Source: Bacillota bacterium
GTDB taxonomy: Bacteria; Bacillota; Clostridia; DSM-8532
NCBI GenBank assembly: GCA_022702935.2
Contig: JAKIML020000036.1
Coordinates: 1-58,421 of the forward strand
Reading direction: 5' to 3'
DNA length: 58,421 bases
Part shown: one piece after another, positions 43,003 through 51,530 of the stretch
Numbering within the stretch: position 1 is the first letter of the stretch
Layout: the number at the start of each line of letters is the position of its first letter
Made by a program: the position numbers and the translations under genes
The notes under the pieces: generated by a model
Database searches by the model: none
The model's input: the letters and a program-made list of their open reading frames with translations, nothing else
What the model was told of the DNA's origin: nothing

Positions 43003-44382
43003 ATGAAAATCAAACGGCTATTAGCACTCTTACTGGCACTCATCATGGTTGTTTCAATGGCAGGCTGCGGAGACGCACAATCAAATCAGACAAATAAGGA
43101 TTTGAAAGGAACCACCATTAAGGTATACACCCATATGGGTCAAAGAGTGCTTGGCGAAGAGAAGAAGGATGAACAGGGCAATACATATCGTGACGCAAAT
43201 ACAGCTATTCTGAAGCATTTGGCAGAGAGATTCACAAAGGAAACCGGAATTAATGTTGAACTCATTGTAGTAACCAATGAAGAGGAATTAAGGCCCTTGT
43301 TCCAGGTAAAGGACGACAGCGTGGACGTGTTTACCTGTCCAAACTGGAGTCTTGAAGAATGGAAGGCCTACGCAGAGCCCTATTGCACCGTTGAGGAAGG
43401 TATTGCCCAATACGGTGAATATGCCAAGGCCATGCCCACCGTGGATAATCAGATCTACTGCATCATGCCCGGCAGAGCCTACAATCAGGCTGTGGTATAC
43501 AATGAAGAGGTCATTAAGGCAGCAGGCTATGATGAAATCCCTGCTACATTGGATGAATTCAACAAGATGTGCGAGAAGATTAAAGCCCTTGGCATTACAC
43601 CCATTTCTCTGCACAGAGTTGAAAACTGGCCCTTGGCAACCGTACAGGACTTTGCCATTTATGTTTCGGGCAACCCCAATGTGTTTGCAGAATGCTTGAA
43701 GACCGAGAATCCGTTCTCTGAAACCTCTCCCTTTGGCAAGACCATTAAGATTTATACCGAATGGAAGGCCAAGGGCTTCTTTGAGCCTGAAGTTTACACC
43801 GATTTTGGTGTTGCCATGGACAGCGTGGCTTACGGCAAAGCCGCAATGATGCTGTTTGGCTCATGGGTAGTACCCCAGATCCAGGGCCGTGTTCCCCAGG
43901 GTAAGGATCCTTCCATCATAAAGTTTGCTCCCGCCCCTGATTTTGGTGCCGGAAGATATGTATTGGCAGCGCCTGCTGATAACTGGGCAATCAGCAAGTT
44001 TTCAAAGAATAAGGAAGCCGCAAGAAAGTTTATTGAGTATATTGCCAATGACGCACAATTCATTGCCGACAGCGGCTTCATTGCCAACAAGAAGGGTGTG
44101 GAACCCAAGGTGCCCGAGCTCTATGCCATTATAGACAAAATGGTGGCATCCGGCGATTGCAAGGTTGTATTACAGCCCGCCAATGACGAGAATGCGCTCA
44201 ATAACCAGAAGGTCCTGGAAGAAGCCGGTTTGTATGCAGATTACAAATATGTGGGATTGCTCTTTGATGCCCTTGACATTACAAGACCCGATGACTGGTC
44301 CGCATATAACAAGCAGGTGGAAACTCAGAATCAGCTCTATGCTAAATATAAACAGGAGCTTGGCGTTTCGTGGAAGGACTAA
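43003..44382 (+). CDS. ABC transporter sugar-binding lipoprotein (family 1)
   Basis: Signal peptide and lipobox (MVVSMAGCGDA, Cys near 23) predict a lipoprotein. The 459-residue protein fits family 1 solute-binding proteins: LKHLAERFTKETGINVELI and MMLFGSWVVPQIQ, KEAARKFIEYIAND near the end. AGGAGG upstream. It leads a sugar-type importer with two permeases of MalF/MalG type. No ATPase gene is in the operon, so a shared MsmX-like ATPase encoded elsewhere probably energises it. Confidence 0.88.
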   Translation: MKIKRLLALLLALIMVVSMAGCGDAQSNQTNKDLKGTTIKVYTHMGQRVLGEEKKDEQGNTYRDANTAILKHLAERFTKETGINVELIVVTNEEELRPLFQVKDDSVDVFTCPNWSLEEWKAYAEPYCTVEEGIAQYGEYAKAMPTVDNQIYCIMPGRAYNQAVVYNEEVIKAAGYDEIPATLDEFNKMCEKIKALGITPISLHRVENWPLATVQDFAIYVSGNPNVFAECLKTENPFSETSPFGKTIKIYTEWKAKGFFEPEVYTDFGVAMDSVAYGKAAMMLFGSWVVPQIQGRVPQGKDPSIIKFAPAPDFGAGRYVLAAPADNWAISKFSKNKEAARKFIEYIANDAQFIADSGFIANKKGVEPKVPELYAIIDKMVASGDCKVVLQPANDENALNNQKVLEEAGLYADYKYVGLLFDALDITRPDDWSAYNKQVETQNQLYAKYKQELGVSWKD

Positions 44383-44395
44383 AGAATATGTGGAT

Positions 44396-44423
44396 AATGC
44401 CTCTTCGACTGTGAAGAGGCATT
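44396..44423 (+). terminator. intercistronic hairpin after the binding-protein gene
   Basis: AATGCCTCTTC (44396-44406), loop GACTGT, GAAGAGGCATT (44413-44423): a perfect 11-bp stem between binding protein and first permease. Such hairpins give more binding-protein than permease mRNA. Confidence 0.75.
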
Positions 44424-44484
44424 TCCTTCTGAAAGGAAGAGCAAACTCGTTATTCCGGTTGTGACGATTTAGGAGAGGAAAGAG

Positions 44485-45357
44485 ATGATTCATACAAAGG
44501 GTACTAAACTGTTAATTGTTTCGTTTTTGGTAATTCCGGTCCTGCATTTGCTGGTATTCTCATACATCCCGATTATCAGCAATATTGCCCTAAGCTTTAC
44601 CAATTATAACGGGGTGAACCCACCCCAATGGGTTGGATTAAAAAACTATCAGAGACTTTTCACCGATCCCCAATATCTTCAGTTGTTTAAGAATTGCTTA
44701 TGGTACATGGTGGTGGCCATACCGCAATTAATCTTTGCCTTTATCCTTGCCGTATTTGTCAACGGCAAGTTCAGGGGCATAAACTTTTTCAAGGGCGTCT
44801 TGATTGTTCCCTATCTATTAAACGGCGTCATCATATCCACCATCTTTATTATCTTCTTCAATAATTCAGGAACATTGAACTCTATATTGAAAGCCCTCGG
44901 GCTCGGGAGTCTTGCCCAGCAGTGGCTCCATAATCTGCGCCTGGTTAATCCGGCTATAGCCTCCATCAGTATTTGGAGATACTATGGCCTAAACTTTCTC
45001 ATGTTTTTTGGCGGACTGCAGGCAATATCCTCCGAACTGTATGAAGCAGCCGCCATTGATGGTTGTACCAAATGGCAGGAGATACGGTACATATCAATCC
45101 CATCCATCCTGAATATCCTTTTCATTAATGTGCTCTTAAGCATATCGGGCTCTATTCAGGTGTTTGAAATTCCCTACATCATGCTGAACGGTGCAAATGG
45201 GACGGCTACACCGGTCATTCAGATACAGCAGAGCGCCTTTGCTGAAAACAGGGTTGGTTTTGCATCTGCCCTCTCCATTGTAGTATTCATCATCGTGGTT
45301 CTGGCTGTCGGTTTGCAGAGACTATTGGACAAAAAGGAGAGTATCATCGATGGTTAA
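44485..45357 (+). CDS. ABC sugar permease (MalF/UgpA type)
   Basis: GGAGAGG precedes the ATG. The 290-residue protein has six membrane helices and the EAA loop YEAAAIDGCTKWQEIRYISIPSI. The last bases overlap the next permease by eight. Partner of the binding protein upstream. Confidence 0.9.
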   Translation: MIHTKGTKLLIVSFLVIPVLHLLVFSYIPIISNIALSFTNYNGVNPPQWVGLKNYQRLFTDPQYLQLFKNCLWYMVVAIPQLIFAFILAVFVNGKFRGINFFKGVLIVPYLLNGVIISTIFIIFFNNSGTLNSILKALGLGSLAQQWLHNLRLVNPAIASISIWRYYGLNFLMFFGGLQAISSELYEAAAIDGCTKWQEIRYISIPSILNILFINVLLSISGSIQVFEIPYIMLNGANGTATPVIQIQQSAFAENRVGFASALSIVVFIIVVLAVGLQRLLDKKESIIDG

Positions 45358-46177
45358 TGAAAGTAGGTCTTACAAGGTATTGCGTTATGTTTTTCTGATA
45401 GGCGCGGTTATCTTTGTCATAGTGCCCATACTCCCGCTCATATTTATGGCCTTTAAAACCGGTTCTGAATATTCGTCCACCAGTGTTTTGGTTCCGCCCC
45501 AGAACTGGTTTAATTTCTATAACTTTAAATATGCCATCAGAGTGGGGAACCTGGGAAAAGCATTGATTAATACCGGCATTATTCTTGCTGTTTCCCTTTC
45601 TGTTCAGCTTTTGTTTACAACCATGGTTTCCTATGTATTGCATAGATTCGAGTTTACAGGAAAAAGGGTTGTGTTTACCCTGTTCCTGTTAACCATGTTC
45701 ATCCCTGTTGTAACAACGCAGACCATTGTCTTTCAGATCATCTATAAGCTGGGGCTTGTGAACAAAATGCTCAGTGTAATCCTTCTTTATTCCGGCGTCA
45801 ATATCGTGGGGATATTCATCATGCTTAACCAGCTCAATGCCATACCCAAGGAGCTGGATGAGTCAGCCCTTATTGATGGGGCCAGCTATTTCAGGATTTA
45901 TGCCAGCATCATACTGCCCAATATGAAGCCTGCGTGTATAACCCTGCTCATCATTAACGGCATTGGATACTATAATGATTTCTATATTCCAAACCTGTAC
46001 TTAAGAAAGGAAGTTCAAACCTTTACTGTAGCGCTGCATAAATTTTTCGGCAATACAGCCACACCCTTTGAAATTGTGGCGGCCGCCATCCTTTTGGGTA
46101 TAGTACCCATTATGATTGTTTTCATCTTCCTGCAGAAGCATATCTTCTACGGACTGGCCGGTGCTGTGAAGTCTTAA
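45350..46177 (+). CDS. ABC sugar permease (MalG/UgpE type)
   Basis: The 275-residue second permease has six helices and the EAA loop DESALIDGASYFRIYASIILPNMKP. It overlaps the first permease by eight bases, so the two are coupled. The operon ends at 46204. Confidence 0.9.
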   Translation: MVNESRSYKVLRYVFLIGAVIFVIVPILPLIFMAFKTGSEYSSTSVLVPPQNWFNFYNFKYAIRVGNLGKALINTGIILAVSLSVQLLFTTMVSYVLHRFEFTGKRVVFTLFLLTMFIPVVTTQTIVFQIIYKLGLVNKMLSVILLYSGVNIVGIFIMLNQLNAIPKELDESALIDGASYFRIYASIILPNMKPACITLLIINGIGYYNDFYIPNLYLRKEVQTFTVALHKFFGNTATPFEIVAAAILLGIVPIMIVFIFLQKHIFYGLAGAVKS

Positions 46178-48927: not shown

Positions 48928-48988
48928 ATTTTTATACATTTTACTGCATAAGTATACATCACGTATGCAGCTTAAGGAGAGACCGATT

Positions 48989-49834
48989 ATGAAGAAGATC
49001 ATTTCTTTATTTACTGCCATTCTCATGCTTACTCTCGTATTAGCAGGCTGTGGCACTAAGAGCACGGGTGTTAAGGTGATTGATATCCCCTTGACGCAGG
49101 AGGAATATGCTTTTGGTGTGGATAAGAACCAGCCCGAGCTATTGGAAGAGGTCAACCAATTCATTGCTCAGATTAAATCAGACGGTACTTTCGACAAGAT
49201 TCTTGACCGTTATTTTGGTGAAGGAGAGCCTCAACCAGTGAAATCCGCCGAGTTGGATACGAGTAAGGACCAGCTTGTGGTTGCTACAAATGCAGGTTTT
49301 GAGCCCTTTGAGTATACCAAGGGTGGTGACACCTACTACGGTATTGACATGGAGATTGCCGCCCTTCTTGCTGAGCACCTTGGCAAAGAGCTTGTCATCA
49401 GCAATATGGATTTTGATGCCGTATGCCTTTCTGTAGGTCAAGGTAAGGCCGATATTGCCATGGCAGGTCTCACTATCAAGGAAGACCGAAAAGAGTATGT
49501 TTCATTCTCAGATCCCTATTACAATGCTGCCCAGAAAATCATCGTCAAGGAATCTGATAAAACCTTTGACAACTGCAAGACAGCTGCCGATGTGGAAGCC
49601 ATTCTTTCCGGATTGGGCAAAGATAAGAAGATTGGTGTTCAAACGGGTACAACGGCCCAGTTCTATGTTGAAGGTGATGAAGACTGGGGCTTCAGCGGCT
49701 TTAATGTCACATGCGTTGGCTATAAATCCGGGTCCCTGGGTGTTCAAGATATGATGAACAAAAATATCGACTATGTCATCATTGATGAAGCGCCTGCCAA
49801 GTTTATCGCCGATGCCATCAATGCGCTCAACTAA
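48989..49834 (+). CDS. amino-acid ABC binding lipoprotein, apparently circularly permuted
   Basis: AAGGAG before ATG 48989. Signal peptide and lipobox (LTLVLAGCGT, Cys near 21). The mature protein starts with KVIDIPLTQEEYAFGVDKNQPELL and KSDGTFDKILDRYFGEG, which in ordinary family 3 binding proteins are the last roughly 50 residues. The usual N-terminal start, QLVVATNAGFEPFEY, occurs only after a linker near residue 92. The chain then runs through GYKSGSLGVQDMMNKNIDYVIIDEAPAKF and stops at AINALN, exactly where the tail would follow. The likely ligand is a polar amino acid. Permease and ATPase follow. Confidence 0.88.
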   Translation: MKKIISLFTAILMLTLVLAGCGTKSTGVKVIDIPLTQEEYAFGVDKNQPELLEEVNQFIAQIKSDGTFDKILDRYFGEGEPQPVKSAELDTSKDQLVVATNAGFEPFEYTKGGDTYYGIDMEIAALLAEHLGKELVISNMDFDAVCLSVGQGKADIAMAGLTIKEDRKEYVSFSDPYYNAAQKIIVKESDKTFDNCKTAADVEAILSGLGKDKKIGVQTGTTAQFYVEGDEDWGFSGFNVTCVGYKSGSLGVQDMMNKNIDYVIIDEAPAKFIADAINALN

Positions 49835-49918
49835 ATAACTCGGCGCTCTATTTCCCTAAGTGTGCGGTGCCGGAAAGTCTAGCATTCAAGGATCGAATCA
49901 TTTAGAGATTATTTGGAT

Positions 49919-49955
49919 AAGATTCCTTAAAAGTCCTTAAGGAATCTTATTCTAT
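49919..49955 (+). terminator. intercistronic hairpin after the binding-protein gene
   Basis: AAGATTCCTTAA (49919-49930), loop AAGTCC, TTAAGGAATCTT (49937-49948): a perfect 12-bp stem, then ATTCTATT. Probably attenuates the downstream permease genes. Confidence 0.75.
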
Positions 49956-50011
49956 TCTGTGCAAATTTCATCAAAGAGTTTTATCTGATTAAAGGATTAA
50001 AGGGATTTGAG

Positions 50012-50722
50012 ATGGGTAGTTTTGAAAAGAAATTAGCAAAGTTTTGGGAAATATTTTACGAGAATGAAGGCTACACCAAGGTCGTTACAGGCCTTAAAAA
50101 CACATTAACCATTGCCGTTGTGGGTCTGGCCATTGGCATCATCATAGGCACATTGATAGCCATTGTGGAGGTATTCCCGAAATACAAAAGGCTTCCGCGC
50201 ATTTTAAATGGCTTTTGCAGGTTTTATGTGGCGTTGTTCCGTGGATCGCCCATTGTTGTGCAGCTTTTGGTTGCCTATTATGTGGTTCTGCCCCTGTTAG
50301 GCATCAATATTCCGGCCCTTAACGTTTGTGTGCTGGTCTTTGGCCTTAACAGCGGAGCCTATGTCTCAGAAATTATGCGGGGAGGAATCCTCTCAGTGGA
50401 CACCGGCCAAATGGAGGCCGGACGTGCTCTCGGCCTTAGCTACGGAGTAACCATGTTGAAAATCGTGGTCCCCCAGGCCGTAAAGAACATCCTTCCCACC
50501 CTGGGCAATGAATTCATCTCCCTCATCAAGGAAACATCGGTTGTCAGCTTTGTGGGGGCGGCAGACCTTTATGTGGCCTTCAGCTATATTGGTACCAACA
50601 GCTATGAGTTTATGGTGCCCTACCTTGTTATGGCGCTGATTTACATTGTCCTGGTTATGATCATTGCCTCGCTTGTTAAACTGATGGAAAGGAGCCTGAG
50701 AAGAAGTGATAGACGTAATTAA
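50012..50722 (+). CDS. amino-acid ABC permease (HisM/GlnP type)
   Basis: AAAGGG precedes the ATG. The 236-residue protein has five to six membrane helices and the EAA loop [30 protein letters not shown]. The RGSPIVVQL segment is typical of polar-amino-acid permeases. The ATPase gene overlaps its end by 17 bases. Confidence 0.9.
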
Positions 50723-51530
50723 TTTAAAGAAGAGCTACAATGGCCTGGAAGTGCTTAAAGGCATCAGTGTGTCCATCAAGGAAGGCGAAAAGGTAGCTAT
50801 CATAGGCCCTTCCGGAAGCGGGAAAAGCACATTCCTGCGCTGTCTCAACTGTCTGGAGGATCCCACCAGCGGCTCCATCATTTTTGACGATGTTGACATC
50901 GCAGATATGAAGGTGGATATCAATATTCACCGGCGGCATATGGGCATGGTCTTCCAGCAGTTTAACCTGTTCAACAACAAAACAGTGCTTCAAAATATTA
51001 TGCTTGCGCCTGTGCAGATTGAATCCCACGACCTTAGGATGAAGAAGCTTAAGAACTTCTTTATACGAATCAGGAATATCTTTCCCGGAAACAAAAAGGC
51101 GTTATATGAAATTGACACGACTTATGATGAGATAAAGCTCAGGGCCAGGGAAAATGCCCTTCGCCTACTCAAGCGCATAGGCCTTGAGGATAAGGCCAAT
51201 GTCTTTCCTTCAACCCTTTCGGGTGGGCAGAAGCAGAGAATCGCCATTGTTCGCGCTCTTGCCATGAACCCGAAGGTCATGCTGTTTGATGAGCCTACCT
51301 CAGCCCTTGACCCGGAAATGGTGGGAGAGGTTCTTGAGCTTATCAAGCAGGTAGCCGATGAGGGCATGACCATGGTCATTGTCACCCATGAGATGGGGTT
51401 TGCCAGGGAAGTGGCCACCAGGGTCTTGTTCATGGATGAGGGCCGAATTCTTGAGGATGAACCGCCTGAGATATTATTTACAAACCCTAAGCATCCAAGA
51501 ACCAAGGAGTTCCTGTCAAAGGTTCTGTGA
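50706..51530 (+). CDS. amino-acid ABC ATPase (GlnQ type) with an insertion
   Basis: The start GTG at 50706 overlaps the permease; AAAGGAG lies before it. The 274-residue protein has Walker [10 protein letters not shown], signature LSGGQKQR, Walker [13 protein letters not shown] and H-loop VTHEMGFA. An extra stretch of about 35 residues ([18 protein letters not shown] and following) sits between the Q-loop and the signature. Relatives are about 240 residues, so this insertion is what makes it longer. Confidence 0.9.

Follow-up and report, generated by a model that had tools for sequence, protein, structure and literature searches.

Within a stretch of 58,421 nucleotides, hereafter the window, we identified a gene whose product is a circular permutant of a kind that originated repeatedly in Clostridia, with duplication followed by loss as the likeliest route; it very probably functions as the binding lipoprotein in an ABC importer for amino acids. 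The open reading frame (ORF) occupies 48989-49834 on the + strand and encodes 281 residues. Its likeliest start is the ATG at 48989, downstream of an AAGGAG motif (Table 1); an alternative in-frame ATG at 48965 would give a 289-residue form. The protein begins with a signal peptide that includes a lipobox cysteine, the LAGC lipobox being residues 18-21. Pfam family PF00497 (family 3) matches the protein at 117.4 bits against a curated cut-off of 26.4. Kinship with MglB-type sugar-binding proteins was not found, as Pfam at an E value of 0.001 returned PF00497 and PF10613 only. The window's own genome holds one such gene, and three other matches there are far weaker.

To describe the order of parts, we divided family-3 proteins into three segments: N1, from the start of lobe 1 to hinge strand 1; D2, which is lobe 2; and T, which comprises hinge strand 2 and the tail. 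We take these lobe and hinge assignments to follow the structures of GlnBP and HisJ. All three cyclic orders of the segments occur in Clostridia: N1-D2-T (conventional), T-N1-D2 (type A, the order of the window protein), and D2-T-N1 (type B). The ligand-site residues of the family are Arg167 in lobe 1 and Asp266 in lobe 2 of the window protein, which presumably play the roles of their counterparts in the HisJ and GlnBP structures. Both are invariant across 185 aligned rows (109/109 type A, 36/36 type B, and 40/40 conventional). As read from its sequence, the ORF is a family-3 amino-acid binding lipoprotein with its C-terminal tail first; it is presumably lipidated and presumably binds an amino acid.

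Table 1. Features of the binding-protein gene and its operon, in window coordinates
Feature	Coordinates	Strand	Basis
Likely ribosome-binding site AAGGAG	48974..48979	+	Read directly from the sequence
Lipoprotein signal peptide, residues 1-20, predicted cleavage before Cys21	48989..49048	+	LAGC lipobox in translation; Cys invariant in alignments A1 and A2
Putatively lipid-anchored Cys and short linker, residues 21-26	49049..49066	+	Sequence; lipidation inferred
T segment (hinge strand 2 and conventional C-terminal tail, here first), residues 27-78	49067..49222	+	phmmer matches to tails of 4zv1, 5t0w, 5tuj, and 6svf; conventional-only profile, 54.2 bits; E-E-E-H-H in the model
Linker, old C-terminus to old N-terminus, residues 79-93	49223..49267	+	Lies between profile matches; the median length over type A rows is 16 residues
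N1 segment (start of conventional proteins, lobe 1, to hinge strand 1; Arg167), residues 94-188	49268..49552	+	Pfam PF00497; phmmer; Arg invariant
Stretch linking the N1 and D2 profile matches, residues 189-211	49553..49621	+	Segment profiles
D2 segment (lobe 2, Asp266; chain end), residues 212-281	49622..49831	+	Segment profile; Asp invariant
Permease, polar amino acid type, ordinary	50012..50722	+	PF00528, 80.2 bits; TIGR01726 above cut-off
ABC ATPase, GlnQ/TcyN-like, 274 aa	50706..51530	+	PF00005, 127.4 bits; GlnQ and TcyN lead the NCBIfam models, each under its cut-off

We compared the window protein with chains in the PDB by using phmmer. Residues 95-270 matched residues 11-171 of AncQR (4zv1) at 78.1 bits, and residues 25-78 matched residues 180-233 of the same chain at 34.3 bits (i-E 1.5e-7), so the order of the two matches is swapped. 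The same swapped pattern was obtained against 5t0w, 5tuj, and 6svf. Our segment profiles were refined on the rows that they classify; a tail profile built from conventional relatives only (40 rows, some of them repeat fetches of one gene) provided an independent control for the tail. This profile matched residues 28-76 at 54.2 bits, and the best of 1000 shuffled mature proteins reached 6.3 bits; therefore, the match is real and not due to chance. According to the segment profiles, N1, D2, and T are each present once, the order is T-N1-D2 rather than the canonical N1-D2-T, and no tail was found at the C-terminus, where the chain stops within a few residues of the end of lobe 2.

An earlier note on this DNA had claimed that the mature protein starts with the tail, that the normal start follows, that the chain stops at the junction before the tail, and that the two pieces are swapped with all parts present once. 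Each of these claims is borne out, by the swapped phmmer matches and the conventional-only profile, by the position of N1 at residues 94-188 (with the phmmer match beginning at 95), by the chain end just past lobe 2, and by the single match of each segment profile, respectively. The opposite reading, in which the N-terminal segment is an unrelated domain that resembles a tail by chance and the C-terminal lobe is complete without it, is rejected and deserves practically no credence, because the conventional-only profile already refutes it (54.2 bits versus at most 6.3 in 1000 shuffles), the segment separately matches several solved tails, and no tail is present at the C-terminus. Judged by profile, the circular permutation of the window protein is real.

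The AlphaFold2 model of the mature window protein, computed with 45 relatives, has high confidence along almost all of the chain (pLDDT 95.6, pTM 0.88), and its tail segment consists of three strands and two helices. Among the matches listed, VIA-align superposed model residues ~67-261 (counted from Cys21) on conventional structures with Z values of 14.9-16.9, rmsd values of 1.8-3.2, and 167-186 residues aligned, and the structure match extends over both lobes of the type II two-lobed fold. As expected for a permutant, the sequential matches listed mostly stop before the tails of their targets. The rank-1 Foldseek match of the model has an rmsd of 6.5 and TM scores of 0.59/0.68. Both Foldseek and VIA-align compare chains sequentially, and we infer the placement of the tail in space, which would be its conventional place in lobe 1. 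A type B model based on eight sequences is only fair (pLDDT 81.2, pTM 0.74). Its Foldseek matches, which include 6h30 and different folds, among them LysR domains and HisG, have query-normalised TM scores of 0.30-0.48, and the pseudo-symmetry of the two lobes may be the cause of this pattern.

We then counted the three orders. By profile, 187 rows were classified as 109 T-N1-D2, 40 N1-D2-T, 34 D2-T-N1, one double D2-T-N1, and three partial, with repeats of one gene included; the distinct ORFs that do not run off the end of their locus number 96 for type A, 31 for type B, and 35 for the conventional order. Near full-length, collinear, stop-free matches to the window protein were present in at least 36 of 391 Clostridia genomes, and such matches to the type B protein L024 in at least 23, including one at 34% identity that was checked (G377). 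The two lists of genomes share no member. Both counts are lower bounds, since at most six candidates were scored per genome with a cut at E 1e-34, and the 391 genomes include many from the window's own genus and family. A phylum-wide search at E 1e-34 found matches in 3 of 398 genomes, all in the window's class; other phyla were sampled only through the best 80 rows of a wider contig scan. The earlier note had considered permuted binding proteins rare, which these genome counts contradict, and the same arrangement, which it had proposed to look for in relatives, is kept in many of them. The note did not mention the second permutation (type B) or the repeated origin.

Among the matches listed, type A carriers include Acetivibrio mesophilus, Faecalicatena contorta, and Mordavella massiliensis; one further carrier, L128, is labelled as an Acholeplasmatales metagenome bin. 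We considered whether stops within matches (TAA, TAG) represent recoding or split genes and rejected this, as the alignment overruns the type B stop in the cases examined (L024 and L025). The break point is not identical in all type B proteins: L135, L152, and L153, which lie near the window clade in the tree, have their break ~20-25 residues beyond that of the remaining type B rows in alignment A3, seen there as an extra C-terminal stretch. Two unfused type B proteins (L151:3198-4001 and L146:3102-3983) have an AxA-like signal end, with no lipobox found. Two more distant T-N1-D2 proteins (L205:1034-1978 and L206:857-1678, the latter with a very weak D2 match) are perhaps further independent permutants. 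The type A gene at L131:3447-3911 is 69% identical to that of the window over residues 17-134 and stops early in a long contig; it is probably a broken gene.

Both type A and conventional genes are found in one genus, g59. Each of the eight g59 genomes that we compared first has one close copy, in type A order in three (G088, G224, and G329) and in conventional order in five (G114, G162, G184, G281, and G312). By BLAST, three upstream genes and the permease and ATPase, in the same order, are common to two type A genomes (G088 and G224) and two conventional ones (G114 and G162); thus, in these four genomes the two orders share one syntenic locus. The third type A genome, G329, has only the downstream genes of the locus in common. 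When re-ordered, the G088 (type A) and G114 (conventional) proteins are 87% identical (170/195 positions). Alignment of G114 with G088 at the DNA level gave 70.6% identity over 497 bases for the 5' flank and signal, 83.1% over 531 for N1-D2, and 83.1% over 65 for the 3' flank, and the tail (149 bases at 81.2%), at the 3' end in G114, follows the signal in G088. In the full g59 sample, 79 of 85 genomes have a match. Of these matches, 22 cover the full length in type A order, which profiles confirmed for every one, and 57 lack the leading tail, the 12 that were checked being conventional. In a DNA tree of 37 g59 rows, eight conventional genes nest within type A, which would imply a reversal, but the data do not reject one clade for type A (p 0.352). 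A permease tree of 13 rows disagrees with the DNA tree and places G114 inside the type A species (support 94/87), so events in g59 may have run in more than one order.

Most circular permutations are inferred from comparisons of distantly related proteins. In g59, orthologs within one genus differ by permutation, so the route, the cost, and any benefit of the change become directly testable.

In Clostridia, the T-N1-D2 order evolved from conventional genes on more than one occasion, most likely through partial tandem duplication and subsequent loss of the redundant ends, and other lineages produced the other lobe-boundary permutant, D2-T-N1. Support for duplication comes from fused (D2-T-N1)x2 and x3 proteins that carry a permease, and from a junction-spanning match to GlnPQ (6h30). 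Type B domains are fused to a permease singly in L054, L055, L056, and L149, as two domains in L145 and L204, and as three in L203, where a 1005-aa ORF (L203:1250-4264, from G022, in the window's own family) has three D2-T-N1 binding domains followed by the permease. The tandem SBD1-SBD2 structure of GlnPQ is the strongest PDB match of the window protein, which is collinear with it across the domain junction (residues 40-228 to 187-359), as is the type A profile (profile positions 44-272 to 187-396). By the 6h30 match pattern and the published descriptions, the domains of GlnPQ itself are conventional and fused to the permease, whereas the fused forms of Clostridia repeat as D2-T-N1. Except across this tandem junction, no PDB chain of the family was collinear in permuted order with profiles A2 and A3 among the best 60 of 85 and the best 60 of 97 matches, respectively.

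The order could also have arisen by movement of the tail only, through cut and paste or template switching, with no tandem duplication. The comparison of G114 with G088 is consistent with such a move, since only the tail shifts while both flanks and the signal peptide keep their positions, and no significant remnant was seen. We nevertheless regard a moved tail as rather unlikely, given that tandem arrays with a permease exist in the family and that an in-frame landing of ~150 bases at the equivalent boundary several times would be less likely than a truncated duplicate. Duplication and loss are not proven over a moved tail, because no T-N1-D2-T intermediate was present among the rows classified (the 187-row set and the g59 rows) and no significant tail match followed the stop in the three g59 type A genes examined. 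We put forward only tentatively, as a possibility that we doubt, that the chain start of family-3 proteins is labile in Clostridia, with the three orders at the lobe boundaries interconverting repeatedly via intermediates that are tandem or fused to a permease, and with a permuted gene having returned to the conventional order at its original locus in at least one genus (g59). If true, this would be a natural system with ongoing, reversible circular permutation.

We propose that, in the window protein, the break lies just before hinge strand 2 and a linker of ~15 residues connects the original termini. The lipid anchor would enter at the hinge rather than at lobe 1's edge, and each lobe would be built almost wholly from one stretch of chain. 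The Venus flytrap would still work, with lobe 1 (Arg167) and lobe 2 (Asp266) closing on an amino acid and the closed protein handing it to the permease and ATPase. The permutation would leave the pocket and the partners as they were and change where the lipid anchor joins. A fold that tolerates a break at either lobe boundary would make permutants that arise by duplication and loss nearly neutral, to be fixed now and then.

Alternatively, the permutation may be adaptive, if a lipid anchor at the hinge and no longer on lobe 1, or lobes that are each one continuous stretch, aid the opening and closing or the docking of a tethered binding protein in Gram-positive cells. The permutation recurs, with breaks at or near lobe boundaries in both types, and a simple pattern detects a lipobox before the first segment in 93/96 type A and 28/31 type B ORFs, although it misses some plain cases, such as L104 and L027. 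The authors of the study of the permuted protein Tp0684 proposed anchoring as a possible reason for its permutation (PMC4990184). However, conventional ORFs carry a lipobox as often (33/35), 57 of the 79 matching g59 genomes lack the leading tail, and the seven type B ORFs fused to a permease would need no lipid anchor. We consider an adaptive origin unlikely, and a functional advantage of the permutation is unproven.

To estimate how often the order changed, we built a tree from 105 rows and 204 columns with the segments in canonical order. From a set of 185 rows, the short row L186 and rows at least 80% identical to a kept row were dropped, which left 97, and eight were restored; the trees omit the partial rows L003, L121, and L131, and two long rows formed the outgroup of the large tree. 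This tree implies at least 12 order changes, and its well-supported branches force at least five changes for type A and at least three for type B. Comparison with the best constrained trees rejected a single clade for type A (p 1.3e-34) and for type B (p 0.0013). The window clade, with 28 rows and support of 100/95, spans several families, and the best conventional relative of the window protein is 51% identical to it; this clade looks like an old permutant. Other permutations are young: the type A protein L068, which lies far from the window clade, is 89% identical when re-ordered (174/195 positions) to the conventional protein L166 of its own genus. The conventional row L027 falls inside a type A clade (support 84/45), and where conventional rows sit inside type A clades, as L027 and the eight g59 rows do, gain, reversal, and recombination are not separated.

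A patchy distribution could in principle follow from a single origin of type A and later horizontal transfer, and the spread of the window clade over several families would fit this. Such a history is very improbable, because L068 is so close to a conventional protein of its own genus, both orders share flanking genes in g59, and one clade for all type A rows is rejected.

In comparison with known family-3 proteins (GlnH, ArtJ, HisJ, Thermotoga maritima ArgBP, and AncQR), the window protein has homology over all three segments, retains both ligand residues (Arg and Asp), and is encoded with a permease and an ATPase of the same family. It differs in its order, in its anchor, which would sit at the hinge, and in a sequential structure match that, for most of the matches listed, covers only model residues ~67-261. 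Among the papers listed from the open-licence literature, we found none on a permuted family-3 protein, which is not proof of absence in print, and the terms ABC transporter, periplasmic, and solute are absent from the text of the CIRPIN preprint (PMC12667903). Natural permutation is known for a sugar-binding protein, and family-3 permutants are apparently new to the open-licence literature. The known case, Tp0684 (MglB-2) of Treponema, is described as a naturally permuted glucose-binding protein of "Cluster Bc" (PMC4990184). Like the window protein, it is a tethered binding protein that was permuted in nature, and Gram-positive bacteria have homologs of it; unlike the window protein, Tp0684 has the type I sugar-binding fold of another family, and its permutation adds a fourth lobe cross-over (PMC4990184). 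The permutation of the window protein would instead open one of the cross-overs. General models of circular permutation are set out in PMC3320104, which also names the DNA methyltransferases as a family in which intermediates of permutation by duplication are documented. The methyltransferases likewise include natural permutants, but they are enzymes, whereas g59 has two orders at one syntenic locus. For annotation, sequential tools may take permuted proteins for truncated ones; for biosensor design, natural permutants indicate at which points the flytrap can tolerate a break.

The binding-protein gene is the first of an otherwise ordinary permease and ATPase operon (48989-51530). Among the best 80 matches listed, loci with at least 2.5 kb of room have a permease and an ATPase downstream in 53/54 type A, 8/8 type B, and 5/5 conventional cases. 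On the basis of the conserved Arg and Asp and the neighbouring genes, an amino-acid importer is by far the most likely role for the operon. In a scan for a regulatory RNA that would name the ligand, no RNA family scored at its gathering threshold within the window; 18 loci scanned in addition gave one T-box, at L143:7042-7279, ~3 kb past the binding-protein gene. The ATPase of the window is ~30 residues longer than the 245-248 aa seen in 7/9 type B loci, and ATPase ORFs of 268-280 aa occur in 30/62 cases in type A loci; judged by eye, the extra stretch in the window comprises about 34 residues. Elsewhere in the window, at 43003-46177, an extracellular binding lipoprotein and two permease-like ORFs appear by sight to form a separate, sugar-type ABC system.
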